DNA of 64,000 nt from a virus: the IMG/VR virus record IMGVR_UViG_3300022839_000006, positions 93,896-157,895 of that record. One strand, given 5' to 3'. A program made the position numbers and the translations under genes. The notes below the pieces were generated by a model. The model was not told the DNA's origin and did not search any database. It saw only the letters and a program-made list of their open reading frames with translations. This document shows, piece by piece, positions 2,640 to 16,104 of the stretch (positions are counted from its first letter, which is position 1; each line of letters starts with the position of its first letter).

Positions 2640-3383
2640 TTAATTTATATCTGCTGTTAAACTGGCAGAGTCCGCTGTTAAACTGGTAGAATCTGCGGTA
2701 ACTGCATTGTTGTTTGCTGGTCTACGAATCACTTCGCTGAACGGATCTATTTCCGAGAAGTCTATAATATCATCTGCTTCTTCTTCGAAGAAGATATTCT
2801 TTGCAATTGGGTCACTGTCATTGAGGCCAGTAAGTGTAGTGATAGTATCTGTTCTAATGCTATCAAAGAAACCGTCAATAGAAGGCGAGCCGGTTTCAAA
2901 CCGCTCTCCAGAAAATTCAAACAGCTCACATTTCATATCAAAAACTTGTAATGCGCCAGTCTGGTAGAACACCGATTCGTGTTCAACAAATGCAATTTCA
3001 AAGAACTTGCTATTAAGTGGCAAATATATAAGATCGCCTTCTTTAGGCCTCTCAATGAGAGGATTTGATCTTGTAATATATCGCTCAAAAGTTCTACGGG
3101 CAATTGTAAATGTTGCCTGATCTCGTATCTGCAAACCAAATTTACTTAGGAAGTCGCCTTCGCCTTGGAAGCCATCTACAGATTTAACATACATTTCAGC
3201 AGAATATGCAGCTGTGAAGATCGACAAGTCATCTTCGTTTAAAATCTGATCTACAGCTTGAAGAGACCTGGCAATATACACCATATCCAGTCCGTGAATC
3301 TGGATGGATTCGATGACTAGATCATCGATGAGACTTTGCTCATTGAAGTTGTCATAGTTCCGAAAAAATACATTAGTCGCCAT
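2640..3383 (-). CDS. gp14: Neck protein gp14
   Basis: 247 aa, close to T4 gp14 (256 aa). gp13 and gp14 form the neck that completes the filled head before tail joining. The N terminus (NVFFRNYDNFNEQSLIDDLV then IESIQIHGLDMVYIAR) is the conserved family start; YLPLNSKFFEIAFVEHE is a second conserved block. The C terminus carries two nearly identical short repeats (VTADSTSLTADSASLTAD), which look like recent slippage. It follows gp13 after a 90-nt gap holding a plus-strand promoter-like sequence, and precedes an inserted fibre-like gene. Confidence 0.92.
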   Translation of the reverse strand: MATNVFFRNYDNFNEQSLIDDLVIESIQIHGLDMVYIARSLQAVDQILNEDDLSIFTAAYSAEMYVKSVDGFQGEGDFLSKFGLQIRDQATFTIARRTFERYITRSNPLIERPKEGDLIYLPLNSKFFEIAFVEHESVFYQTGALQVFDMKCELFEFSGERFETGSPSIDGFFDSIRTDTITTLTGLNDSDPIAKNIFFEEEADDIIDFSEIDPFSEVIRRPANNNAVTADSTSLTADSASLTADIN

Positions 3384-3401: not shown

Positions 3402-3429
3402 TTGACATGTTTTCTATGTGTGGTATAAT
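3402..3429 (+). promoter_or_regulatory. Consensus sigma70 promoter, antisense to late genes
   Basis: TTGACA (3402-3407), 16-bp spacer, TATAAT (3424-3429), both hexamers 6/6 matches, on the plus strand in the gap between gp14 and gp13. Every neighbouring gene is on the minus strand, so a transcript starting near 3436 would run antisense through gp13 and the sulfotransferase gene. The same TATAAT plus ggatttatcc core recurs at 23600. On the minus strand the core reads GGATAAATCC, a weak late-promoter look-alike, so the conservation could serve the other strand. Confidence 0.55.
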
Positions 3430-3463: not shown

Positions 3464-3480
3464 CGGATGAGGGTCATCCG
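3464..3480. other. Short hairpin covering the gp13 stop codon
   Basis: A 7-bp inverted repeat (CGGATGA / TCATCCG) with a 3-nt loop. It contains the gp13 stop codon at 3474-3476. On the minus strand it is followed by a C-rich run rather than a T-tract, so it is not a standard intrinsic terminator; it may stabilise the mRNA end or modulate gp14 expression. Confidence 0.4.
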
Positions 3481-4217
3481 ATGAAGTTGAACACAAGTGG
3501 TTGCAGTGTATTAATTGCTTGTTCTTCAAGGCGAAGTCTCTCTTCACGTGCATCACTTAGGATTTGTGCTCCGTTGAATGTCACACCGCCGACAAGTTGC
3601 ATATTTTCAAATTTTGTAAGGTTAAAGCCCCACTGTTCTTTTACAAGAGTGGTTGCATAATTCTGTAACCATCTGTCTCTCCAGAAGTCCGAATATAGCG
3701 TATCATCTATAATGTCATATGCTTCCATGATAATAACCATTCCAGGGTAAAATTTCTTAGCATCAATATCAATAAAAAGTTTATCTACGTGTCTGTTATA
3801 TCTGATTAGAGGCGTGCCTACGAGCATTTCCTGAATAAACTCTAAATGTTGCATTGACATGACGTAATTTGTCAAGTTATATCCTGTGACGTCCGACAAA
3901 TTATTCAACACGAACTGATACGACACATTAAACATGCCAGCCCCAGTAGATATTGAACTTGACAGATTAAAGATTCTTGTAACCCCAAGTAGTCTAGGAG
4001 ATACAGAGATATAACCATTATCAATGTCTTCTTGTGTCATTGCATGCTTGAGATATATAAGTTGCGAGCCGTCGTAGTGGTAATCTCTAAAAAAACTAAT
4101 TGCTTCATCAACACGATCGTCGACCTGCTCATCAGAGACGTTCACCTGAATAACAGGAGCACCGATTTTGCGAAGCAAATATTCTTTAAATTCTTCTCTG
4201 TTGCTTGGCTGAGCCAT
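3474..4217 (-). CDS. gp13: Neck protein gp13
   Basis: 247 aa from the chosen ATG (T4 gp13 is 309 aa). It is the head-completion/neck protein and partner of gp14. Family features are the N-terminal REEFKEYLLRKIGAPVIQVN, the acidic helix DRVDEAISFFRDYHYDGS, and the SPRLLGVTRIF block. A GTG three codons upstream (4226) also opens the frame, but AAGGGG lies 8 nt before the ATG at 4217 and touches the GTG, so ATG is preferred. A perfect late promoter lies at 4239-4246. It is the first neck gene downstream of the glycan cassette. Confidence 0.92.
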   Translation of the reverse strand: MAQPSNREEFKEYLLRKIGAPVIQVNVSDEQVDDRVDEAISFFRDYHYDGSQLIYLKHAMTQEDIDNGYISVSPRLLGVTRIFNLSSSISTGAGMFNVSYQFVLNNLSDVTGYNLTNYVMSMQHLEFIQEMLVGTPLIRYNRHVDKLFIDIDAKKFYPGMVIIMEAYDIIDDTLYSDFWRDRWLQNYATTLVKEQWGFNLTKFENMQLVGGVTFNGAQILSDAREERLRLEEQAINTLQPLVFNFIG

Positions 4218-4238
4218 TGTCCACACCCCTTTTTATTG

Positions 4239-4246
4239 TATTTATA
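4239..4246 (-). promoter_or_regulatory. T4-type late promoter for gp13
   Basis: Exact TATAAATA on the minus strand, 22 nt upstream of the gp13 ATG. T4 late promoters consist of this -10-like octamer read by the gp55-gp33-gp45 machinery; the clamp gp45 is present in the window, gp55 and gp33 are not seen. Confidence 0.75.
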
Positions 4247-4255
4247 CAAAAGGTG

Positions 4256-4825
4256 TTATGTCGCTGAAGCATCTAGAAACAGCACTTGATCTTCCTTATA
4301 GTATTCAAGTAACACTTCAATAAAAGCGGGATCTGAAAGCAACTCATTAACATAAGGCTCGACTTTGAGCTTATGTTCATTTTCTATTGTAGAGTTGTAT
4401 TTTTTCACGTCATTGATGCCCAATGCTTTAGATATATTGAGTTTGAAGTTTTTATCCATCGCAATGTATGTTGGGTTGGTAAGGTCTCTACAGAAATATG
4501 AAAGTGGCTGGTGATGAAGGTCGCCTATTGATTTGAAGTTCTTCCAATTTTTCCTTTCAAACCAAGCAGCAAAATTGTCAAATTTAAAGTTGTTATATTG
4601 CAAATGGTGGTAGCAGACTTCAATAGTAGAACCTTTCCACCTTTCCACCACATCTCGAACAACAATTATTGCTTCATAATCGTATATTGAATCTCTTATA
4701 TAATTGCCATTTTTCCAACCCATTCTCATTAGATCGTGCGAAACGCTTTTGGATGCATTCTTAGGTATATCTAACCACATCTTCCTTTCAGTGTGGTTAA
4801 GATAGCAATTGCCTGGAAAGTTCAT
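4256..4825 (-). CDS. Sulfotransferase-like protein
   Basis: 189 aa. An N-terminal LDIPKNASKSV matches the 5'-phosphosulfate-binding loop of PAPS-dependent sulfotransferases (compare IPKTAGTS-type loops). A second block, IIVVRDVVERWKGST, matches the 3'-phosphate-binding motif (VRDPVERF-like) that follows at the expected distance. The protein is shorter than most members (about 250-300 aa), so it may be minimal or divergent. Sulfate transfer to a sugar hydroxyl is the likely reaction. Its start overlaps the FkbM stop in an ATGA junction, and FkbM in turn overlaps a glycosyltransferase, so all three probably act on one glycan. The acceptor is unknown. Confidence 0.68.
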   Translation of the reverse strand: MNFPGNCYLNHTERKMWLDIPKNASKSVSHDLMRMGWKNGNYIRDSIYDYEAIIVVRDVVERWKGSTIEVCYHHLQYNNFKFDNFAAWFERKNWKNFKSIGDLHHQPLSYFCRDLTNPTYIAMDKNFKLNISKALGINDVKKYNSTIENEHKLKVEPYVNELLSDPAFIEVLLEYYKEDQVLFLDASAT

Positions 4826-5529
4826 AACCCGAAGTTAGCCTTTACTGAATCGTGAACTGCGATGTAATCTGGACCAATAAAATCTTCGTCGGTCAGACTA
4901 TACTCGTGGAACTCAACGTTGTCTGGTTTCAGCTTTCCTAATGTAAAACCAAGTGGTTGTAGGAACTTATAACTATCAATCAACATCCATTTAGTCAACA
5001 CACATATAAAACTATATTCAAACTGTATTACTTTTACTTTTCCTTCTTTGAGTGTATTTTCAAACCCTTTAAACACTTTACCTTCAGCACCTTCAGTGTC
5101 AATTTTTAGATAATCAATTTGCTGAATTTGTCTACTTTCAACATACTGATCGCCTGTCATTGTGAGGCCTGTTCTGATCTCGCTATCATCAAGTTGCAAG
5201 TCAAGAATTGAAGTGCTGAGTGCGTCATAAGAAGCTTTATATCTCATGGGGATTGAGCCAGCGGAATCAGACAAACCGAAACTGTTTGGGATCATCTTGT
5301 CGTCGAGTTCAATGTTGGAAAGCATTCTTCGGTATGTATCTGGTATTACCTCGAACATATGAATATCAGCGTCCGCTTGATATTGTCTTGTCATGTTAGT
5401 CCACTCGCCGATATTTGAACCAACGTCAAAAATGGTTTTAAACTGATTTTTAAATCTTTCTTGGATCCAAGTCTCGCCGTGCTCTTGAAATTCTCTCGTT
5501 GCGTAGGATCTATCGTATACGTGTGTCAT
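4822..5529 (-). CDS. FkbM-family SAM-dependent methyltransferase
   Basis: 235 aa. The SAM-binding glycine motif is IFDVGSNIGEWT (about residues 33-44), followed by HMFEVIPDTYRRM for the adenosine-binding acidic residue. The FkbM hallmark IDYLKIDTEGAEGKVFKGFE is at about residues 142-161. FkbM enzymes O-methylate sugars or polyketides. The gene shares 1 nt (TAATG-type) with the upstream glycosyltransferase and 4 nt with the downstream sulfotransferase, so it is translated as part of one cassette. Capping methylation of a phage-made glycan is an inference; the acceptor cannot be read from sequence. Confidence 0.85.
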   Translation of the reverse strand: MTHVYDRSYATREFQEHGETWIQERFKNQFKTIFDVGSNIGEWTNMTRQYQADADIHMFEVIPDTYRRMLSNIELDDKMIPNSFGLSDSAGSIPMRYKASYDALSTSILDLQLDDSEIRTGLTMTGDQYVESRQIQQIDYLKIDTEGAEGKVFKGFENTLKEGKVKVIQFEYSFICVLTKWMLIDSYKFLQPLGFTLGKLKPDNVEFHEYSLTDEDFIGPDYIAVHDSVKANFGL

Positions 5530-8246
5530 TATCTAAAAACCCTTGTATCATTATGTGTTACGGATACTGTATTTTCTTTTTCAACTGTTTGTGACTCGAC
5601 TGGCTGCTCTGTCTTTTCGACCACAGCAATTTGCTCATTCAATTTGAAGGTGTGATTTCCTATGTGTTCGCACTTAATCGAAGTGTCTGCCCAAATCTTA
5701 AATCCTAGGTCTCTTGCTTTTTTGCAAAAGTAAACGTCCTCAGAAACGGTGTTGATATGTTCAAGAGCTGACGTGTAATAAAAATGTGGGTATTCCATTG
5801 TGCGTATTACATTTGCTTTTACTAGACATGCACCGAAACCACATCCAGCAATTTCAACAACACCTCTGTCTTTGAGCATCTCGTAAGGAATGTTAGTCAT
5901 ACCGCCAGACGGCGTGTCCATATACAATTCAACTGTATGGGTATTTGTGATTCGTTGTATGTACAATCCAGAGATTACATCCACATCAGCAGACAACATT
6001 CTTACGAGTGCATCTTCAGGTAGTACTATATCACTGTCTACCGAAAAGAGATAATCATATCTCTTTGTCCATTCAGCAATTAAATTTCGAATCTGGTCGA
6101 TTTGATATCCATAAGCATACTGAAAGTCTACTTTGTATCCTTCTGGGACGGTCATATTATATATTGACTTCATAGTTTCAGGCTCTATGTATCTATTAGT
6201 TGGTATTGCTAATAGTATTGTTTTCACTGTTGCATCCTTTTTATCTTTTTCGTATGAAAGATTGGCATTTTTATTCTGCTCGTCTCCACTTACCTTATAA
6301 TCATTGAGTGGGTTTGCATCGTTATAATTGCAGACTATTTCCTTATTACAATAGATCTTTTCTGGTTCTATTCTTTCTATCAGTTCATAGAAAAGAGGGT
6401 TGTCGTGCCCTGATTTCATCCACTCTCCATTCACTTTGAATTTTTCGACATCAAGAGTGGGAAAATATTCTCCCAAGCATGTCCTGAGATGCGTATACGG
6501 AATTTTCCAGTTGAAGTGATGATCTCTATAAGATCTCGTTTTCTTTACTTCAATGGGATAATCTTGAGCTATCAGAGGTATGTTATCTGCAACGGACCAC
6601 ATTGACCCGTAAGTAAATTCATAGCCCTGACCATAAAGGTCGTTGTAGTAATGGAAGATTGTATTGTTATTTATAAGCCAATCGTCACCGTCTAACAACA
6701 TCACAATGTCGTCTGGTTTGCAACCACTCACCGCTTTGATCTGATTTGCGATGGCACCTTCATTTTCTTCATTTCTAATCAACTGAAATTTTGATTTTAG
6801 ATTGTGTGAAAGAGAGTTGATTGTCTGTTGTGCTATTTCGAACGAGTTGTCGTCCGAGCAATCGTCAATTAAAATGTGTGTATAGTTGTCATAATCCTGC
6901 TGGGCAATTGAAAGAATATTCTTCTGAATGTACTTTTCAGCGTTCCAAAACGGAGATATTACTGAAATTCTTTTCTGGTTGTTGAACGATCTATACTCTT
7001 TTCTGACTGGCATTTCGCTAGTTCTTCCGAACACGCGAGAAACCTTGTCGTTGATGCGAGTGACATTTTGATAGTCTTCAACGGAGAGAAACTCGTCATT
7101 GATCTTATATAAGAATTGCTTCCATTGAAGAGCAACTGTATCCCATCCGTAAACATCCTTGATGACATCGCAGTAATTTTGCTTCTGTTGATGAGCATAT
7201 GGGTTATTATAGGCATTAAAGAATGTAGCAAGAAACTTTTTAACCTGTTCTTCTTTGTTGATGTGAGGAAAAAGATTGTTAGGCTCAATTGCATAATCAA
7301 TTTGATAGCACGCAAGATCAATTGCTGTTTCTTCAAGTGCGCCAAATCGTGTTGTTACGATAGGAGTTCTATACAGTAGAGATTCAAGCGACGATATGCC
7401 GAATGTTTCTGGGAAAGCACCTGGGTACAGCATCATATATGCGTTTGCAAGTATTCCTGCAATTTCGTGCTGAGGGATTACCCCAGTAAATGTGACACCT
7501 AAATCTTTTAGATCTTGACTGTTTGTTAGTTCAGAAACTGTATTTTCCTGAGCATCAGGCTCGGCACCTTCTCTGAAACGGTAATACCCACCGATAATGG
7601 TCAACCTTGCTTCTGGGATATGTTTCTTAATCTCTGGCCAAATATGTTGTACTAGAGGCAACATTCCCTTAGTTGCAGATGCATTGTAAACAAAATGGTT
7701 CTTGTCTTTTTTTGATATGTCAACTTCAGGAATGTGACAGACAGCGCCGTTGCGAGTTTGAAAGATTGACTTCTTGAGAACTTCATAATTTCTCTTTTTA
7801 CCGTGTGCGCAAGTAAGAATATACGAGGTGTGCCAATCAGAAAGAGTAAATATGTGGTCAATTTTACCAGAAATTACAAGGTCTTCTACCAGCTGATCGC
7901 CTTCTATAAAGGTATCATGAAGCCAGAGTAACCTCTTGTTAGCAGTATGTATGAATGGGTAGTCGTTATTTACAAATGGCTCGACAGTTCTCGAAACTAT
8001 GACCGAATCGTAGGTTTCATTGTGCGACTTTGCATCTTTGTTGTCGATGTATCGAACGTTATCATACGTACCAGCTTGAGAACGGGAAGAGTCATCACAG
8101 TTGTTAAAAACCGTGACGTGAAACCCTAGTTCTGCTAGTTCTTTTGAAATCAGTGTTACAGCGGACTCTGAGCCCCCAAGACCTTGTTTTGATAGTGTAG
8201 TGCCATCATAACATAAGCCGATCTTGTCAATAAGTGCTATTTTCAT
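5529..8246 (-). CDS. Three-domain glycosyltransferase
   Basis: 905 aa with three glycosyltransferase units. Residues ~1-390 are a GT4-like GT-B fold: the QGLGGSESAVTLISKELAEL donor loop, TIIGGYY, and the FPETFGISSLESLLY E-x7-E motif. Residues ~425-640 are a GT2 GT-A domain: ISVISPFWNAEKYI, ILIDDCSDDNS and MLLDGDDW with the DxD metal site. Residues ~668-870 are a second GT-A-like unit: LLAIPTNRYIEPETM, YLFSVDSDIVLPEDAL (DSD). Such fusions can build a short oligosaccharide by sequential transfer. The gene leads a cassette with FkbM and sulfotransferase-like genes, all overlapping. Likely targets are a virion protein or a host surface glycan; the sequence does not decide between them. Confidence 0.85.
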   Translation of the reverse strand: MKIALIDKIGLCYDGTTLSKQGLGGSESAVTLISKELAELGFHVTVFNNCDDSSRSQAGTYDNVRYIDNKDAKSHNETYDSVIVSRTVEPFVNNDYPFIHTANKRLLWLHDTFIEGDQLVEDLVISGKIDHIFTLSDWHTSYILTCAHGKKRNYEVLKKSIFQTRNGAVCHIPEVDISKKDKNHFVYNASATKGMLPLVQHIWPEIKKHIPEARLTIIGGYYRFREGAEPDAQENTVSELTNSQDLKDLGVTFTGVIPQHEIAGILANAYMMLYPGAFPETFGISSLESLLYRTPIVTTRFGALEETAIDLACYQIDYAIEPNNLFPHINKEEQVKKFLATFFNAYNNPYAHQQKQNYCDVIKDVYGWDTVALQWKQFLYKINDEFLSVEDYQNVTRINDKVSRVFGRTSEMPVRKEYRSFNNQKRISVISPFWNAEKYIQKNILSIAQQDYDNYTHILIDDCSDDNSFEIAQQTINSLSHNLKSKFQLIRNEENEGAIANQIKAVSGCKPDDIVMLLDGDDWLINNNTIFHYYNDLYGQGYEFTYGSMWSVADNIPLIAQDYPIEVKKTRSYRDHHFNWKIPYTHLRTCLGEYFPTLDVEKFKVNGEWMKSGHDNPLFYELIERIEPEKIYCNKEIVCNYNDANPLNDYKVSGDEQNKNANLSYEKDKKDATVKTILLAIPTNRYIEPETMKSIYNMTVPEGYKVDFQYAYGYQIDQIRNLIAEWTKRYDYLFSVDSDIVLPEDALVRMLSADVDVISGLYIQRITNTHTVELYMDTPSGGMTNIPYEMLKDRGVVEIAGCGFGACLVKANVIRTMEYPHFYYTSALEHINTVSEDVYFCKKARDLGFKIWADTSIKCEHIGNHTFKLNEQIAVVEKTEQPVESQTVEKENTVSVTHNDTRVFR

Positions 8247-8280: not shown

Positions 8281-10041
8281 TTATTTATCCTTGCTCAATT
8301 TCCTTACCGCGTCAACCAATATTGCAATCAGAGGTATGTAAGAGACCGACTTGACACCATTTTCGTTTGTTGTTACTAAATCTGGCACAATCTGCTCTAG
8401 TTCTTGTGCAATAACACCGTAGCTTTTCTTCTTGTTGTCTTTCCAATTAAAGGAGTATGTGCCAATTTGATTAATAATACCAAGACTGTCTATATCAGAA
8501 TTGAAATTCTCTTTATAATTTGCATCAGATAGAGAGTTAAATTCAGTAGCATTTAATGTGCCAGTTGAAGGATTAAAATACAATTTATCTGAAGCAACGT
8601 ATACTACCTGCGCAACTCCGCTACTAGATCCAACGAAACCTAAAAATCTGGTTGCATCAGTAGTTTCGTTGGTTATAGTAATACTTGAACCTTCTGCAGC
8701 AGGACCTTGACTTCCGGTAAATCCTAAGTCACCTTTGGATCCGGTAAATCCTGCCCCTTGTGAGCCGACATAGCCAGTGTCACCTTTGGATCCGGTAAAT
8801 CCTACGTCACCTTTGGATCCAGTAAACCCAGCTGTGCCTTGACTTCCAGTAAAACCAAAGTCTCCCTTGGAACCAACAAAGCCAGTATCACCTCGACTGC
8901 CAGTGTAACCAATTGAACCTGCATAGCCTAGGTCACCTTTGGATCCAACAAAACCAGTAAATCCTAGTGACCCGGTGTAACCAATTGAACCAGCATAACC
9001 CAAATCGCCTTTGGACCCAGCATATCCTACGTCACCTTGCGATCCAGAATAACCCAAAACACCTTTACTGCCAGTAAATCCAAAAGATCCAGTGTATCCT
9101 ACATCGCCTTTGGATCCAGAATAACCAGTTGTACCTTGACTTCCGACATAACCAATTGAACCAGCATAACCCAAATCACCTTTGGATCCATCAAAACCAG
9201 TTGTACCTTGGCTACCGACATAACCAATCGAACCGACATAACCCAAATCGCCTTTGGATCCATCAAAACCAGTTGTACCTTGGCTACCAGTAAATCCTTG
9301 CGACCCAGTGTAACCAATCGAACCGACATAACCCAAATCGCCTTTGGATCCATCAAAACCAGTTGTACCTTGGCTACCAGTAAATCCTGCCCCTTGGGAA
9401 CCAGCATAACCCAAATCGCCTTTGGACCCATCAAAACCAGTTGTACCTTGGCTACCAGTAAATCCTAGCGACCCAGTGTAACCAATCGACCCAGTAAACC
9501 CTAGTTGGCCGCGCGACCCAGAAAAGCCTATCAAGCCCTGTGATCCTGCGAAACCTATACTGCCCTGTGATCCTGCGAAACCTATACTGCCCTGCGAACC
9601 CGCGTATCCCCGAGAACCTATATCGCCTTTCGAACCTGTGAAGCCGAGAGGACCTGTGAAGCCAGTCTCGCCTTTTGAGCCTGTAAAGCCAACAGAGGCG
9701 GCCTCTCCTGCTACACCTTGAATGCCTTGGGACCCAGAAAAGCCTAACGAACCAGTGTAACCCAGTTCGCCTTGGGATCCTGCAAAGCCAAGTGATCCAG
9801 TAAAGCCGAGAGAACCTGTGAAGCCTATCTCGCCTTTTGAGCCTGTATAGCCAACAGCAGCATATGCGCCCGCTACACCTTGAGATCCAGTAAAACCTCT
9901 ACTACCAGAAAAGCCACTGTTGCCTTTAGATCCGTCAAAGCCGCTGGTGCCCTGTGAACCTGTGTACCCTCTATTTCCTACAGTATTTACTGCTATTCTA
10001 GGACCTACGGTGGTGCTAGGTATCACGATTAAATCGCTCAA
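8281..10041 (-). CDS. Collagen-like tail fibre with S74 chaperone domain
   Basis: 586 aa. Residues ~20-415 are unbroken Gly-X-Y triplets of an unusual kind (GFT, GYT, GYA, GFD, GSK, GSQ), with aromatic residues in X and no proline enrichment. A beta linker follows, then a C-terminal peptidase_S74 intramolecular chaperone starting near residue ~500: SDANYKENF holds the Ser and the Lys five residues later used for self-cleavage, then YGVIAQELEQIVPDLV and a helical SYIPLIAILVDAVRKL tail. The domain trimerises the fibre and is then cut off in known homologues. Two more collagen-like genes (14479, 18157) share the same repeats. Confidence 0.88.
   Translation of the reverse strand: MSDLIVIPSTTVGPRIAVNTVGNRGYTGSQGTSGFDGSKGNSGFSGSRGFTGSQGVAGAYAAVGYTGSKGEIGFTGSLGFTGSLGFAGSQGELGYTGSLGFSGSQGIQGVAGEAASVGFTGSKGETGFTGPLGFTGSKGDIGSRGYAGSQGSIGFAGSQGSIGFAGSQGLIGFSGSRGQLGFTGSIGYTGSLGFTGSQGTTGFDGSKGDLGYAGSQGAGFTGSQGTTGFDGSKGDLGYVGSIGYTGSQGFTGSQGTTGFDGSKGDLGYVGSIGYVGSQGTTGFDGSKGDLGYAGSIGYVGSQGTTGYSGSKGDVGYTGSFGFTGSKGVLGYSGSQGDVGYAGSKGDLGYAGSIGYTGSLGFTGFVGSKGDLGYAGSIGYTGSRGDTGFVGSKGDFGFTGSQGTAGFTGSKGDVGFTGSKGDTGYVGSQGAGFTGSKGDLGFTGSQGPAAEGSSITITNETTDATRFLGFVGSSSGVAQVVYVASDKLYFNPSTGTLNATEFNSLSDANYKENFNSDIDSLGIINQIGTYSFNWKDNKKKSYGVIAQELEQIVPDLVTTNENGVKSVSYIPLIAILVDAVRKLSKDK
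8282..8289 (-). promoter_or_regulatory. Variant late promoter for the glycosyltransferase cassette
   Basis: GATAAATA on the minus strand (7/8 match to TATAAATA), overlapping the end of the collagen-like fibre gene and 36 nt before the glycosyltransferase start. If active it would make the three-gene glycan cassette a late unit. The single mismatch keeps confidence modest. Confidence 0.45.
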
Positions 10042-10045
10042 TTTC

Positions 10046-10384
10046 CTACTCCGGTCTTGTGATAGTTGGGATTATGTGGACAGTGCCTTCCAGTAACTTT
10101 TTCACATTTCCATTTTGATTGGTATAAATTACATCGTACTGGTATTTACCAGGTTCTAGATCGGCGGTCTTTTCAGCTCCAATGAAAATGTCTAAATCTA
10201 CTGTTTCACCACCGCCATTTTCTTGTATTGTAACTGAGGCATCAAACAACTTAGCAGATGAATAAACTTTTCTTGCACTAGAGTAGAAAGCTAAACCTTC
10301 TGTGGTGTTTTCATCTAGTGTAATCTGAAGACGAAGTAGAAAATCAATTCCCTGATCTACATAGAGATTTGCTCTTGTTGTCAT
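10046..10384 (-). CDS. Small virion-associated protein of unknown function
   Basis: 112 aa. The N terminus TTRANLYVDQGIDFLLRLQI and the LEPGKYQYDVIYTNQNGNVK block suggest a compact beta-sandwich. I recall similar small proteins next to fibre genes in marine T4-like phages, but no function is known to me. It has its own exact late promoter (10416-10423) and ends 4 nt before the collagen-like fibre, so a fibre connector or assembly role is plausible. No catalytic motif, signal peptide or membrane segment is visible. Confidence 0.7.
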   Translation of the reverse strand: MTTRANLYVDQGIDFLLRLQITLDENTTEGLAFYSSARKVYSSAKLFDASVTIQENGGGETVDLDIFIGAEKTADLEPGKYQYDVIYTNQNGNVKKLLEGTVHIIPTITRPE

Positions 10385-10415: not shown

Positions 10416-10423
10416 TATTTATA
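10416..10423 (-). promoter_or_regulatory. T4-type late promoter
   Basis: Exact TATAAATA on the minus strand, about 32 nt before the 112-aa gene. It should drive that gene and the collagen-like fibre beyond it. Confidence 0.7.
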
Positions 10424-10962: not shown

Positions 10963-12573
10963 TTATCCTTTTATAATGATTTTAGTGGTGGCTACAGCAA
11001 CCCCTGCATAGACATTTGGGTTGCCTGGAGTTTGAGCTAAGGCGCCGGTACCGGTCACGAAGTATTGCTGCGCCGTTACCAAGCCTGACTGTGACTCATT
11101 TACCGAACCGCCAATTTGCACAGTAGCTGTGGCAGCATCAGCGTAGGCTCCAGCAGAAAAGCCAATGTAGTTCTCAGTGGTCAGATTTGTTCCTACAGCG
11201 TCTAGGCTATCAATTGAAATAGCAGTACCGAAGTTAGAGTTGCCGAAGTCTCTGTAAGCAATGGCAACTTTGTTTGAGTTGCTGTCAAAAGTTGCCAAGG
11301 GGGTGAAGGTACTTGCACTTTCAAACACGACAGGAGTGCCAAAGCTGATTGAAGTCCCACTGACAGTCCCTACAACGGCAGTGCCGAAGCCAGAGTTGGC
11401 TTCGTCTCTATAGGCAATGACGACCTTGTTGTTGAAACTGTCAAAAGTGATTGTGATGTTGGTGGTATCGGCACTTGCAAACACGACAGTAGTACCAAAG
11501 CTAATTGAAGTTCCACTGACAGTACCTACTCTGGCAGTGCCGAAGCTGGAGCTGCCTCTATAGGCAATGACGACCTTGTTGTTGAAACTGTCAAAAGTGG
11601 CTGAGATATGGTATGTGTATGCACTATTGAACACGACAGCAGTGCCAAAGCTGATTGAGGTTCCACTGACAGTACCTACTACAGCAGTGCCGAAGCCAGA
11701 GTTGCCGCTGTCTCTATAAGCAATGACGACTTTGTTTGAGTTGCTGTCAAAAGTGGCTGAGATAAGGGCGGTATTTGCACTTTCAAACACGACAGGAGTG
11801 CCGAAGCTAATTGAAGTTCCACTGACAGTACCTACTCTGGCAGTGCCGAAGCTGGAGTTGCCGGCGTCTGAATAAGCAATGACAACCTTATTGTTGGAAC
11901 TGTCAAAGGTGGCTGAGATGTTGGTAGCATTTGCACTCTCGAACACGACATGAGTGCCGAAGCTGATTGAAGTCCCACTGACAGTTCCTACAACGGCAGT
12001 GCCGAATTGAGAGTTGCCGTTGTCTCTATAAGCAATGACGACCTTGTTTGAGTTGCTGTCAAAGGTGGCCGCGGTATAGGTGGCACTTGCACTCTCGAAC
12101 ACGACAGGAGTGCCGAAGCTGATTGAGGTTCCGCTGACAGTACCTACAACGGCAGTGCCGAAGCCGGAGTTGCCGTAGTCTGTATAAGCAACGACAACCT
12201 TATTGTTGAAACTGTCAAAAGTGGCTGACATCCAGTCGGTAGTTGCACTATTGAACACGACAGCTTCAGAAGAACTAAGACCAACCGCACTCACAGTACC
12301 ATCTGCGTTAATAACTACAGGCACGCCATTTGGCAGTGTACCAGAGGCGATTGCTTGCAATGTCGGACCGGTCGATCCGCCAATTGATCCCCACTCAACC
12401 CCACCAAATCCTTCAAATGTAGCGGCTGTGCTGTTGTATCTTAGTTGTCCAATGACGCCCACAGGTCTTTCAAGATCAGTACCTACTGGAACCTTAATTG
12501 CAGTGGTTCCTGCTAAATCTATGTATGCAGTCTGATCGTTTATGATCGTGGTGCCTTGTATTTTGATTGCCAT
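10963..12573 (-). CDS. Tail fibre with seven ~52-residue repeats, copy B
   Basis: 536 aa. An N-terminal attachment region (MAIKIQGTTIINDQTAYIDL onward, ~110 aa) precedes seven tandem repeats of about 52 residues built on ATFDS-NSNKVVIAYRD, NS-FGTAVVGTVSG and TSISFGTPVVFES. Repeat five is two residues short. The last blade breaks into a C-terminal domain (ENYIGFSAGAYADAATATVQ). Seven repeats of blade-like length suggest a seven-bladed beta-propeller, likely for receptor binding. Most differences between repeats fall in two short loops. The neighbouring gene 12823-14442 is a close paralogue. It has its own late promoter at 12665 and is followed by the 85-aa gene. Confidence 0.85.
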   Translation of the reverse strand: MAIKIQGTTIINDQTAYIDLAGTTAIKVPVGTDLERPVGVIGQLRYNSTAATFEGFGGVEWGSIGGSTGPTLQAIASGTLPNGVPVVINADGTVSAVGLSSSEAVVFNSATTDWMSATFDSFNNKVVVAYTDYGNSGFGTAVVGTVSGTSISFGTPVVFESASATYTAATFDSNSNKVVIAYRDNGNSQFGTAVVGTVSGTSISFGTHVVFESANATNISATFDSSNNKVVIAYSDAGNSSFGTARVGTVSGTSISFGTPVVFESANTALISATFDSNSNKVVIAYRDSGNSGFGTAVVGTVSGTSISFGTAVVFNSAYTYHISATFDSFNNKVVIAYRGSSSFGTARVGTVSGTSISFGTTVVFASADTTNITITFDSFNNKVVIAYRDEANSGFGTAVVGTVSGTSISFGTPVVFESASTFTPLATFDSNSNKVAIAYRDFGNSNFGTAISIDSLDAVGTNLTTENYIGFSAGAYADAATATVQIGGSVNESQSGLVTAQQYFVTGTGALAQTPGNPNVYAGVAVATTKIIIKG

Positions 12574-12664
12574 CTTCGCTTCCCCTTGTGGATACTCGGC
12601 TATTATTTGTAATTTTCACTATAATCATTATATGTATTGTATTTTCGTACTTCAGTGTTACTTG

Positions 12665-12672
12665 TATTTATA
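12665..12672 (-). promoter_or_regulatory. T4-type late promoter for fibre copy B
   Basis: Exact TATAAATA on the minus strand in the interfibre gap, 92 nt upstream of the copy B start and just past the pseudogene remnant. Confidence 0.7.
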
Positions 12673-12684
12673 AAGGATAGACAT

Positions 12685-12817
12685 TTAATTGTGTGAGCAA
12701 AGTACACTTAAAATAGCATCACTGTCAGTGATTTTGTCACTTTCAATTAGTAGTGTCTTAGTGTCTTAGTGTCTTCAAAAGGTAGAGGGATAAATTATCT
12801 TTAGTAAGTGTTTTTAT
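12685..12817 (-). pseudogene. Decayed copy of the 85-aa fibre-accessory gene
   Basis: The minus strand reads KTLTKDNLSLYL, identical in pattern to residues 2-13 of the intact 85-aa protein, but the start codon is ATA rather than ATG. The frame is then broken by three tandem copies of the 8-mer AAGACACT (12752-12775). After the break another frame resumes with IESDKITDSDAI, matching IEADKITVGDPA of the intact protein, and stops early; the C-terminal ~45 residues are missing. It sits immediately after fibre copy A, exactly where the intact gene sits after copy B. A remnant of a duplicated fibre plus accessory unit is the simplest reading. Confidence 0.82.
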
Positions 12818-12822
12818 TTGGT

Positions 12823-14442
12823 TTATCTTTTCACTATGAGTTTTGTAGAGGATACAGCAACACCCGCATAGACTTCAGGGTTGCTCGGAGTTTCAGCTAA
12901 GGTGCCATTACCGGTCACGAAGTATTGCTGTCCGGCTGTCAAGCCTAATTGAACACCGTTGATCGCACCGATAAGCTGCACAGTAGCTGTGGTAGCATCA
13001 GCGTAGGCTCCAGCAGAAAAGCCAATATAGTTCTCAGTGGTCAGATTTGTTCCTGCAGCGCTTAGACTATCAATTGAAATAGCAGTGCCGAAGCCGGAGT
13101 TGCCGTCGTCTCTATAAGCAATGACAACCTTGTTTGAGTTACTGTCAAAGGTGGCTGAGATAAAGTAGGTAGTTGCACTTTCAAACACGACAGGAGTGCC
13201 GAAGCTGATTGAAGTCCCACTGACAGTCCCTACAACGGCAGTGCCGAAGCTGGAATTGCCCACGTCTCTATAAGCAATGACGACTTTGTTGTTGAAACTG
13301 TCAAAAGTGGCTGAGATCCGGTCGGTACCTGCACTCGCGAACACGACAGGAGTGCCGAAGCTGATTGAAGTCCCACTGACAGTTCCTACAATGGCAGTGC
13401 CGAAGTAAGAATTGCCGTTGTCTGAATAAGCAATGACGACCTTGTTTGAGTTGCTGTCAAAAGTGGCCGAGATGTAGTTGGCAGTTGCACTCTCGAACAC
13501 GACAGTAGTGCCGAAGCTGATTGAAGTCCCACTGACAGTTCCTACGACAGCAGTGCCGAAGCCAGAGTTGCCGTCGTCTCTATAAGCAATGACAACCTTG
13601 TTTGAGTTACTGTCAAAGGTGGCTGAGATAAAGTAGGTACTTGCACTCTCGAACACGACAGCAGTGCCGAAGCTGATTGAAGTCCCATTGACAGTTCCTA
13701 CGACAGCAGTGCCGAATCGAGAGTTGTTGCCTTCGTCTCTATAAGCAATGACAACCTTATTGTTGAAACTGTCAAAGGTGGCCGAGATGTGGCTGGTAGT
13801 TGCACTCTCGAACACGACAGTAGTGCCGAAGCTGATTGAAGTCCCACTGACAGTTCCTACGACAGCAGTGCCGAATCGAGAGTTGCCCACGTCTGTATAA
13901 GCAATGACAACCTTATTGTTGAAACTGTCAAAAGTGGATAAGATGTAGTTGGTAGGTACACTCGCGAACACGACAGGAGTGCCGAAGCTGATTGAAGTCC
14001 CACTGACAGTTCCTACGACAGCAGTGCCGAAGCCGGAGTTGTATGAGTCATAATAAGCAACGACAACCTTATTGTTGAAACTGTCAAAGGTGTCCGAGAT
14101 CCAGCTGGTACCTGCACTCTCGAACACGACAGCTTCAGAAGAACTAAGACCAACCGCACTCACAGTACCATCTGCGTTAATAACTACAGGCACTCCATTT
14201 GGCAGTGTACCAGATGCAATTGCTTCTAATGTTGGGTTGGCCGATCCGCCAATTGATCCCCAGCCAGCCCCACCAAATCCTTCAAATGCAGCCGCGGTGC
14301 TGTTGTATCGTATCTGTCCAGTGACACCCGCAGGTCTTTCAAGATCAGCACCTACCGGAACCTTAATTGCAGTGGTTCCTGCTAAATCTATGTATGCAGT
14401 CTGATCGTTTATGATCGTGGTGCCTTGTATTTTGATTGCCAT
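12823..14442 (-). CDS. Tail fibre with seven ~52-residue repeats, copy A
   Basis: 539 aa, paralogue of 10963-12573. The N-terminal ~70 residues differ at only a handful of positions and the repeat framework is almost invariant, pointing to recent duplication or gene conversion. It also has seven repeats. Residues at the loop between VVFES and ATFDS vary from blade to blade (TTSH, STYF, TANY, GTDR), while framework residues do not. The C-terminal domain (after SIDSLSAAGTNLTTENYIGF) has diverged more than the N terminus. A late promoter overlaps the end of the upstream gene at 14480. Its downstream accessory gene is a pseudogene, so it may depend on the copy beside fibre B. Confidence 0.85.
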   Translation of the reverse strand: MAIKIQGTTIINDQTAYIDLAGTTAIKVPVGADLERPAGVTGQIRYNSTAAAFEGFGGAGWGSIGGSANPTLEAIASGTLPNGVPVVINADGTVSAVGLSSSEAVVFESAGTSWISDTFDSFNNKVVVAYYDSYNSGFGTAVVGTVSGTSISFGTPVVFASVPTNYILSTFDSFNNKVVIAYTDVGNSRFGTAVVGTVSGTSISFGTTVVFESATTSHISATFDSFNNKVVIAYRDEGNNSRFGTAVVGTVNGTSISFGTAVVFESASTYFISATFDSNSNKVVIAYRDDGNSGFGTAVVGTVSGTSISFGTTVVFESATANYISATFDSNSNKVVIAYSDNGNSYFGTAIVGTVSGTSISFGTPVVFASAGTDRISATFDSFNNKVVIAYRDVGNSSFGTAVVGTVSGTSISFGTPVVFESATTYFISATFDSNSNKVVIAYRDDGNSGFGTAISIDSLSAAGTNLTTENYIGFSAGAYADATTATVQLIGAINGVQLGLTAGQQYFVTGNGTLAETPSNPEVYAGVAVSSTKLIVKR

Positions 14443-14478: not shown

Positions 14479-16104
14479 CTATTTATACTTCGTGGTTTCT
14501 ATATTCTCTACGCGATCTGACAGTGTTTTAAAGCCGTCAATTAAGATGGCAATTAAAGGAATGTAATTCACATACTTCTTACCGGATGTATTTGTCACCA
14601 ATTCAGGCAGTATTTGCTCAAGTTGCTGAGCAATTACACCGTAGCTTCTAACACCAGTTTCTTTCCAATCGAATGATATTGTTTCAATGCTATTAAGTAT
14701 TGCATTTGAATTGTAGATTTTATTTGGGTTATCTTTAAGTGTAATATCAGAGAGTGAATTGAATTCAGTAGCGTTTAGTGTTCCAGTCGAAGGGTTGTAG
14801 AATAATTTTGTAGATGAAACAAACAGATCATCCGTGGCACCAGAAGTATTGTTTACAAACGTAATGTATCTCGTGTTGTCAGTTGCAACATCATCAGTTA
14901 TTACAAGATCTGCTCCAGCGCCAGCACTTCCAGTAAATCCAACATTTCCCTGCGAACCTGTGAAGCCATTTGAACCAGAATATCCACTAGAACCACTAAA
15001 GCCATCTTCTCCTTTTGATCCGGCAAAGCCTTGTGGGCCGACATCACTTACATTAATAACCCCTGCCATACTTGCGTGTATAGAACACTGGTAATATAGA
15101 GTACTTGGGGCATTGTATGGCAATCTAACGATCACTATCCCATTTTCAGCGCCATTATTAGTAACACCGTCATTATATTGACTGCCAGTACCGGTTACTT
15201 GTGCTGTCTTAATGTAAAACGGATGTCCCGGAGCTGCGACGTTGAAAGCATACGTAAACCCACGAATGAGATTCAAGGTCGGCTGAGATGCACCGTCAAT
15301 GATATAATTCGAAGAACCATTATTAGTTACTGTATATTCTCTTCTGCCTTCTATTCCAGCTGATCCTGTAAAACCTTGTGAACCTGTGAAGCCAAAAGAT
15401 CCAGCAAACCCAGTTTCACCTTGGGAACCGGAGTAACCCAAGGAACCAGTAAAACCTACATCTCCTTGTGAACCAGTAAACCCAGTATCAGCCGCTTCGC
15501 CCGCAACACCTTGCGAACCAGAATACCCCATATCACCTTTAGACCCGTCAAAGCCAGTTGTGCCTCGACTGCCTGTAAAACCAAACGAGCCAGTAAAACC
15601 AACAAGGCCCTGTGAACCCGTGTAACCCAATTCACCTTGTACACCCTGCGAGCCAGTATACCCAAAAGAACCAGTATACCCTACATCTCCTTGAGAGCCA
15701 GTATAACCTTGAGAGCCAGTATAGCCGACGAAGCCGCCCTGTCCAGTCGAACCAGTAAACCCTTTACTTCCGGAATAACCTCGCGAGCCTGCATAACCCA
15801 AATCTCCTTGAGAGCCAGTAAAGCCAAACGAACCAGTAAAACCAACAATACCCTGAGAACCCGTATATCCTTGGGATCCATCAAATCCTGTAATACCTTG
15901 AGAGCCAACAAATCCAGTTTCGCCTTGAGAGCCAGTATAACCTTGAGAACCTGTATAGCCTTGAGAACCCGTATAACCTATAGAAGCAGCTTCGCCGGGA
16001 ACACCTTGTGAACCTACGAAGCCAGCGCCTTGACTTCCCGTAAAGCCCCGAGAACCGTCAAACCCCTTATATGAACCACTTATAAAACTACTTAAAACTG
16101 TCAT
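14479..16104 (-). CDS. Collagen-like fibre with cupredoxin-like insert and S74 tail
   Basis: 541 aa. Residues ~10-245 are Gly-X-Y triplets (GFT, GYT, GSQ, GSF). Then about 100 residues form a cupredoxin-like domain: REYTVTNNGSSNYIIDG, LIRGFTYAFNV, PGHPFYIKTAQ and YYQCSIHASMAGVI, where GHPF plus C-x2-H-x2-M resembles a type-1 copper ligand set. A second short triplet tract follows, then a beta linker and an S74 chaperone (SDITLKDNP with Ser and Lys+5; YGVIAQQLEQILPELV). The chaperone should be cut off after trimerisation. Its late promoter is at 16165. Whether copper binds cannot be told from sequence. Confidence 0.85.
   Translation of the reverse strand: MTVLSSFISGSYKGFDGSRGFTGSQGAGFVGSQGVPGEAASIGYTGSQGYTGSQGYTGSQGETGFVGSQGITGFDGSQGYTGSQGIVGFTGSFGFTGSQGDLGYAGSRGYSGSKGFTGSTGQGGFVGYTGSQGYTGSQGDVGYTGSFGYTGSQGVQGELGYTGSQGLVGFTGSFGFTGSRGTTGFDGSKGDMGYSGSQGVAGEAADTGFTGSQGDVGFTGSLGYSGSQGETGFAGSFGFTGSQGFTGSAGIEGRREYTVTNNGSSNYIIDGASQPTLNLIRGFTYAFNVAAPGHPFYIKTAQVTGTGSQYNDGVTNNGAENGIVIVRLPYNAPSTLYYQCSIHASMAGVINVSDVGPQGFAGSKGEDGFSGSSGYSGSNGFTGSQGNVGFTGSAGAGADLVITDDVATDNTRYITFVNNTSGATDDLFVSSTKLFYNPSTGTLNATEFNSLSDITLKDNPNKIYNSNAILNSIETISFDWKETGVRSYGVIAQQLEQILPELVTNTSGKKYVNYIPLIAILIDGFKTLSDRVENIETTKYK
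14480..14487 (-). promoter_or_regulatory. T4-type late promoter for fibre copy A
   Basis: Exact TATAAATA on the minus strand, overlapping the last codons of the S74 fibre gene, 37 nt upstream of the copy A start. Confidence 0.7.

Follow-up and report, generated by a model that had tools for sequence, protein, structure and literature searches.

A widespread, uncharacterised phage glycan cassette between fibre and neck genes, here with a sulfotransferase-like gene

We analysed a 64,000-nucleotide stretch of DNA from a large T4-like phage (the window), positions 93896-157895 of the 208,230-bp and possibly incomplete virus record IMGVR_UViG_3300022839_000006. Three overlapping open reading frames (ORFs) on its minus strand encode a three-domain glycosyltransferase (GT; 905 aa, 5529-8246), an FkbM-family methyltransferase (235 aa, 4822-5529) and a Sulfotransfer_2-like sulfotransferase (189 aa, 4256-4825). 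The GT and FkbM genes overlap by 1 nt and the FkbM and sulfotransferase genes by 4 nt, as stated in the original prediction made from the letters of the window; identical 1-nt and 4-nt overlaps occur in two related loci (L003 and L025). Since the gene order of the cassette recurs in related contigs, the arrangement is not due to chance. We read the three genes as a glycan cassette that is widespread in phages yet uncharacterised, carrying a sulfotransferase gene in this case, and consider it an even bet that it is expressed late and assembles a glycan that decorates a virion protein.

The GT comprises a GT4-like GT-B domain (residues 1-386), a GT2 domain of the GT-A type (about 426-640) and a third, putative GT-A-like domain (about 675-870), in agreement with the domain content proposed earlier. 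Pfam places Glycos_transf_1 at residues 188-312 and Glycos_transf_2 (PF00535, 8.8e-19) at 428-582; the record scanned for PF00535 gave one match, the cassette's own GT. In the model of the full protein (mean predicted local distance difference test score, pLDDT, 82.6), the GT4 part aligns with MshA over 335 residues (Z 29.5, root-mean-square deviation, rmsd, 3.0), as expected of a GT-B fold. The third domain is matched by PHROG 1574 (unknown function) and by PHROGs 12406 and 34859, both named glycosyltransferase; in relative L067 it is weakly matched by PF13506 and PF03452. Tandem GT-A enzymes were also found with the whole-protein model in Foldseek, where a two-domain heparosan synthase and K4 chondroitin polymerase form the top rows. 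Human LH3 and mimivirus R699, which could be taken as a sign of a collagen glycosyltransferase, matched with low TM-scores over the tandem GT-A part, mixed with the heparosan and chondroitin polymerases, and were not used.

We aligned 26 GTs, a selection among the loci in which one row is the window. Key residues of the GGSE, EX7E, DxDD, DSD and SED motifs are retained in all 26. This holds for E280 and E288 of the GT4 motif EX7E, for the three Asp residues of DGDD in the GT2 part and for DSD in the third domain; the exceptions are one Gly of DGDD, which varies, and D461, replaced by Asn in six sequences. Two GTs (L022 and L051) contain an extra stretch of about 200 residues ahead of the third domain, and Pfam counts two Glycos_transf_2 stretches in L022. 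Also before the third domain, an opposite-strand DUF7487 ORF, perhaps a mobile or homing element, splits the GT gene in L027 (5619-6908, 1.4e-12; also in L063) and in L067 (237-1373, 6.8e-10).

The second gene product matches both Methyltransf_21 of Pfam (PF05050, 2.9e-13) and TIGR01444 of NCBIfam (3.2e-20, 73.1 bits against a cut-off of 37.7), and the two profiles thus agree on the FkbM assignment. Eleven of the 26 aligned GTs carry an FkbM-like extension fused to their C-terminus, confirmed by Pfam in all five that were scanned (L007, L008, L014, L030 and L043). In another six (window, L003, L011, L022, L025 and L078) a separate FkbM gene comes next, and in the remaining nine FkbM is neither fused nor adjoining, two of these (L012 and L039) lying near a contig end. 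The bacterial-genome contig L090 has Methyltransf_24 in the place of FkbM (5.4e-5, 24.5 bits, under the cut-off of 26.3). Such fusion or adjacency suggests that the chain is assembled and methylated within a single pathway, and the GT-FkbM fusion, as read from the aligned proteins, is the best evidence that both activities serve one product.

At the sequence level, the third gene product resembles sulfotransferases weakly. Its match to Sulfotransfer_2 is above the cut-off but marginal (1.9e-5, 25.4 bits where 22 is required, covering positions 128-249 of the 252 in the profile). PHROGs, NCBIfam and the sequences of solved structures, the last searched also with a profile, returned nothing, and 50,697 phage records gave no match at E 0.01. 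Its structural model aligns best with carbohydrate sulfotransferases, which lends support to the assignment. When Foldseek candidates were re-aligned, the first 44 of the 50 listed rows were sulfotransferases or relatives binding 3'-phosphoadenosine 5'-phosphate (named retinol dehydratase or Teg12/Teg14), with Z up to 5.7 over residues 11-188. Ranks 1-9 are heparan 3-O-, N- and 6-O-sulfotransferases (Z 5.7-5.0, rmsd 4.1-4.6, 143-157 residues), headed by a 3-O-sulfotransferase (Z 5.7, rmsd 4.1, 152 residues); these Z values are middling and the model behind them is of moderate confidence. Seven relatives, 48-67% identical to the window protein, share 57 invariant columns, including IPKNASK at the expected position of the 5' loop, R57 and S66. 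We take IPKNASK to be the 5' phosphosulfate loop and the Arg...Ser pair to be the 3' phosphate-binding motif. The lack of a pocket for 3'-phosphoadenosine 5'-phosphosulfate (PAPS) in the product of 4256-4825 had been named as the outcome that would undo the sulfation idea; we found instead the invariant IPKNASK, modelled at low confidence, together with R57...S66 and a sulfotransferase-like modelled fold.

Several details tell against a sulfating enzyme. The mean pLDDT of the model is 72.8, with residues 18-41 below 50; the top Foldseek row before re-alignment is a sulfotransferase, but at E 0.14; and the Ser following the conserved Arg is at +9, where the canonical spacing is +8. A degenerate or non-sulfating relative, leaving a product that is methylated and not sulfated, would fit this displaced Ser, the marginal Pfam score, the failure of the profile search to find any solved-structure sequence and the L025 relative, which has no Pfam match at E 0.001. 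We nevertheless judge such a loss of function improbable given the fold match and the 57 columns kept invariant at 48-67% identity. The L067 relative itself scores above the Sulfotransfer_2 cut-off (22.4 bits), and in L067 and L074 a second sulfotransferase-like protein is encoded alongside, between the sulfotransferase and gp13; its L067 copy, the only one scanned, matches Sulfotransfer_2 at 2.5e-12.

A search for homologues, suggested with the original prediction, located relatives of the GT at 66 loci on virus contigs, in many cases with fibre genes on one side and gp13 on the other, and the sulfotransferase gene in eight records (L002, L003, L004, L005, L011, L025, L067 and L074), of which L003-L005 are mutually close and L002 does not differ from the window across the cassette genes. 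FkbM directly precedes the sulfotransferase in all eight, and gp13 directly follows it in six; two fragments (L098 and L100) show the end of a sulfotransferase gene before gp13. Judged by this distribution, the sulfotransferase appears to be an optional extra of the cassette. L090, the one bacterial-genome contig with the GT, also bears phage neck and fibre genes. Matches in named phages are partial and of low identity. By gp14, Sinorhizobium phiM12 and Methylophilales phage Melnitz-3 are among the nearest named phages, and neither has such an annotated cassette before gp13.

As had been proposed, the cassette lies between fibre genes and the neck. Upstream is a minus-strand gene (8281-10041) whose 586-aa product is a collagen-like fibre that bears repeats of the (GYTGSQG) type and ends in Peptidase_S74; downstream, on the same strand, are genes for a gp13-like neck protein, a head-tail adaptor according to PHROG (3474-4226), and a gp14-like neck protein (2640-3383). 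With variable inserts in relatives, this order is that of the host recognition cluster of T4-like marine phages. In L022 and its copies, an eight-gene glycan block (L022:12088-19072) separates FkbM from gp13 and includes GT17, GT4-like, GT2, methyltransferase and cytidylyltransferase/cupin genes; its first gene (355 aa) matches no Pfam or NCBIfam family. One cytidylyltransferase/cupin gene is present in L056. The fibre-to-gp13 block is a hotspot for glycan genes.

The late-type promoter proposed for the cassette calls for caution. The motif noted originally, GATAAATA at 8282-8289 (minus strand), overlaps the end of the fibre gene and is a candidate late promoter; GATAAATA occurs in the window at the level of chance (3 against 2.98 expected). 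TATAAATA is enriched (14 against 3.02 expected), and 12 of the 14 sites are followed within 200 nt by the start of an ORF on the same strand. Among 34 distinct sequences from upstream of the GT, L002 being included as the window's copy, 9 have [N]ATAAATA at 30-52 nt before the GT start (shuffle mean 0.65, maximum 3 in 300 shuffles); TATAAATA and GATAAATA are each present there in 4 of the 34. This interval was picked after the motif positions had been viewed; when it is widened to -80 to -8, the count stays at 9 of 34 and shuffles average 2.26. The recurrence makes a late promoter upstream of the GT likely. Two further TATAAATA sites on the minus strand are located between the cassette and gp13 (4239-4246) and upstream of a gene for a 112-aa protein (10416-10423). 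This gene (10046-10384, minus strand) is the first after the latter site and may head a transcript running through fibre and cassette. A terminator scan of the region gave 6 hits, about as many as shuffled sequence does (mean 4.8).

Beyond the computed gene order, overlaps, families, folds, catalytic-type motifs, methyltransferase-GT association and late-type motifs, we infer that three sugar transfers are active, the order in which they proceed, the acceptor of the sulfate and a virion protein as the final acceptor. The 905-aa enzyme would transfer as many as three sugars, one after another, to a cytoplasmic acceptor, FkbM would methylate one of them using S-adenosylmethionine, and the third enzyme would add sulfate from host PAPS. 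The enzyme assignments made earlier are supported, and so, as a prediction, is the idea that the enzymes build a sugar chain and then methylate and sulfate it. The decoration might shield the fibre or change its binding.

The acceptor is less easily named. We see roughly balanced chances for a virion protein; the leading candidates are the collagen-like fibre next to the cassette, which is rich in Ser and Thr, and any other fibre made together with it. This fibre contains 13.3% Ser and 9.2% Thr, and its repeats offer many such residues. Of 18 non-redundant loci with sufficient flanking sequence, 12 have a collagen-like ORF no farther than about 6 kb from the GT; of 15 GT-less relatives, none has one upstream of gp13 (Fisher p 5e-5), with thresholds of our own choice (12 repeats, 5.5-kb flank, crude k-mer de-duplication). 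The test omitted the window, and its closest relatives were dropped for short flanks, though a collagen-like gene adjoins there. The GT is divergently oriented beside collagen-like genes in two loci with a different gene order, L078 and L090.

Other results weigh against fibre decoration. Six of the 18 GT loci have no collagen-like ORF nearby, the two arms of the proximity test are anchored differently (on the GT and on gp13) and the phages are related. Over whole records, collagen-like matches (E <= 0.001) are found in 26 of the 34 that bear the GT and in 17 of the 30 GT-less ones (p 0.11 before redundancy removal, with 0.12 as the second value of the test). Among these 30, the GT is matched weakly and in part in 8 and not at all in 22, and 16 are above the Pfam cut-off for collagen-like proteins. 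We rejected this co-occurrence as proof of the target because it does not separate GT-bearing from GT-less phages. Epimerase, adenosine 5'-phosphosulfate (APS) kinase and the hydroxylase PF13640 were searched for in the 208-kb record and none matched; as far as this possibly incomplete record goes, the absence of the last two leaves hydroxylysine-type glycosylation and self-supplied PAPS unsupported. The proposal that fibres or capsid are decorated keeps the proximity of collagen-like genes to the GT on its side and stays an inference, with collagen-like genes elsewhere in GT-less relatives and a published host-surface reading set against it.

According to that reading, the enzymes act on the host surface: with its O-chain or capsule altered, the dying cell would not be bound by competing phages or by the phage's own progeny. 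The pelagimyophage study places GTs in the same fibre-to-neck cluster and proposes O-chain modification and avoidance of coinfection (PMC7029224). The lipopolysaccharide enzyme WaaG is among the structure matches of the GT4 domain, and the cytidylyltransferase/cupin genes of L056 and L022 would fit surface sugars. We hold a host-surface acceptor to be possible but doubtful, as exclusion would call for earlier expression than a late structural block with late-type motifs suggests, Pfam and NCBIfam recognised no lipid-carrier enzyme among the three products, and the GT lies near collagen-like fibres. Hypermodification of phage DNA bases, for which virus GTs are known (cited in PMC12619734) and to which a thymidylate-synthase-family gene in the record might be related, we regard as very improbable: a sulfotransferase and a late structural location are ill-suited to it, and the gene in question carries the Asn of thymidylate synthase and not the change that marks dCMP hydroxymethylase. 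This phage thymidylate synthase gene (G000:C1:25246-26127, 3.4e-95) stands upstream of an ORF that by eye resembles the ribonucleotide reductase small chain.

The cassette has partial counterparts in print. GTs among fibre genes just ahead of T4-like neck genes form part of the pelagimyophage and cyanomyophage host recognition cluster (PMC7029224); there GT8 is the commonest GT family and the main text never mentions a sulfotransferase or FkbM, whereas here one three-domain GT is accompanied by both. The hypervariable slot and the idea of phage GTs in it are already known, and the system is not of a new kind; new is the combination of three-domain GT, FkbM fusion in relatives and sulfotransferase. 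Two proteins matched in a fold search of BFVD, A0A6J5T3W3 and A0A6J5M7M7 of uncultured Caudovirales (41% and 46% identical to the GT), are both uncharacterised, and neither is known to be linked with a sulfotransferase; the second is named Methyltransferase FkbM, as expected of a GT-FkbM fusion. Mycobacteriophages, which are unrelated, bear glycans on structural proteins, namely at the C-termini of capsid and tail tube proteins, and sulfation is unmentioned where this work is cited (Freeman et al. 2023, as cited in PMC12619734). Collagen-like surface proteins modified with sugars are described for mimivirus (L71/L230) and Bacillus anthracis BclA (PMC9614988); the BclA tetrasaccharide carries an O-methyl group. 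L230, however, acts on hydroxylysine, and the record lacks a PF13640 match.

A sulfated phage glycan had been called unusual; phage sulfotransferases as such have already been reported from marine phages. Sulfotransfer_3 proteins of OM43 phages and S-SRM01 have an unclear role, belong to another Pfam family and come from a paper whose main text never mentions a glycosyltransferase (PMC10580990). We found no paper joining phage, sulfotransferase, glycosyltransferase and FkbM, in a search that left out most subscription papers and is no proof of absence. Rather unlikely, in our estimate, is the full picture in which collagen-like fibres are coated with a methylated, sulfated oligosaccharide by the phage's own enzymes; collagen glycosylation would then have an equivalent in bacteriophages, and the sulfated glycan might be the first on any phage virion. 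With the product on the virion, phage fibres could be charged and post-translationally tuned, with effects on adsorption and recognition that are missed by sequence alone. Phage sulfotransferases, whose function is called unclear in print (PMC10580990), would then also gain a first testable role. The optional sulfotransferase and the exchange of fused for separate methyltransferase provide natural variants for tests.

In the vicinity of the cassette, two tandem paralogous repeat proteins of about 540 aa each, with GTAVVGTVSGTSISFGT-type repeats, are encoded at 10963-14442, and TATAAATA precedes each; a Pfam scan of the 12823-14442 protein at E 0.01 gave no family. The same fibre block also encodes, at 14479-16104, another collagen-like protein that ends in Peptidase_S74. 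Between gp14 and gp13, at 3402-3429 on the plus strand, which is opposite to that of the neck genes, there is a 12/12 match to a sigma-70-type promoter with TG before the -10 element.

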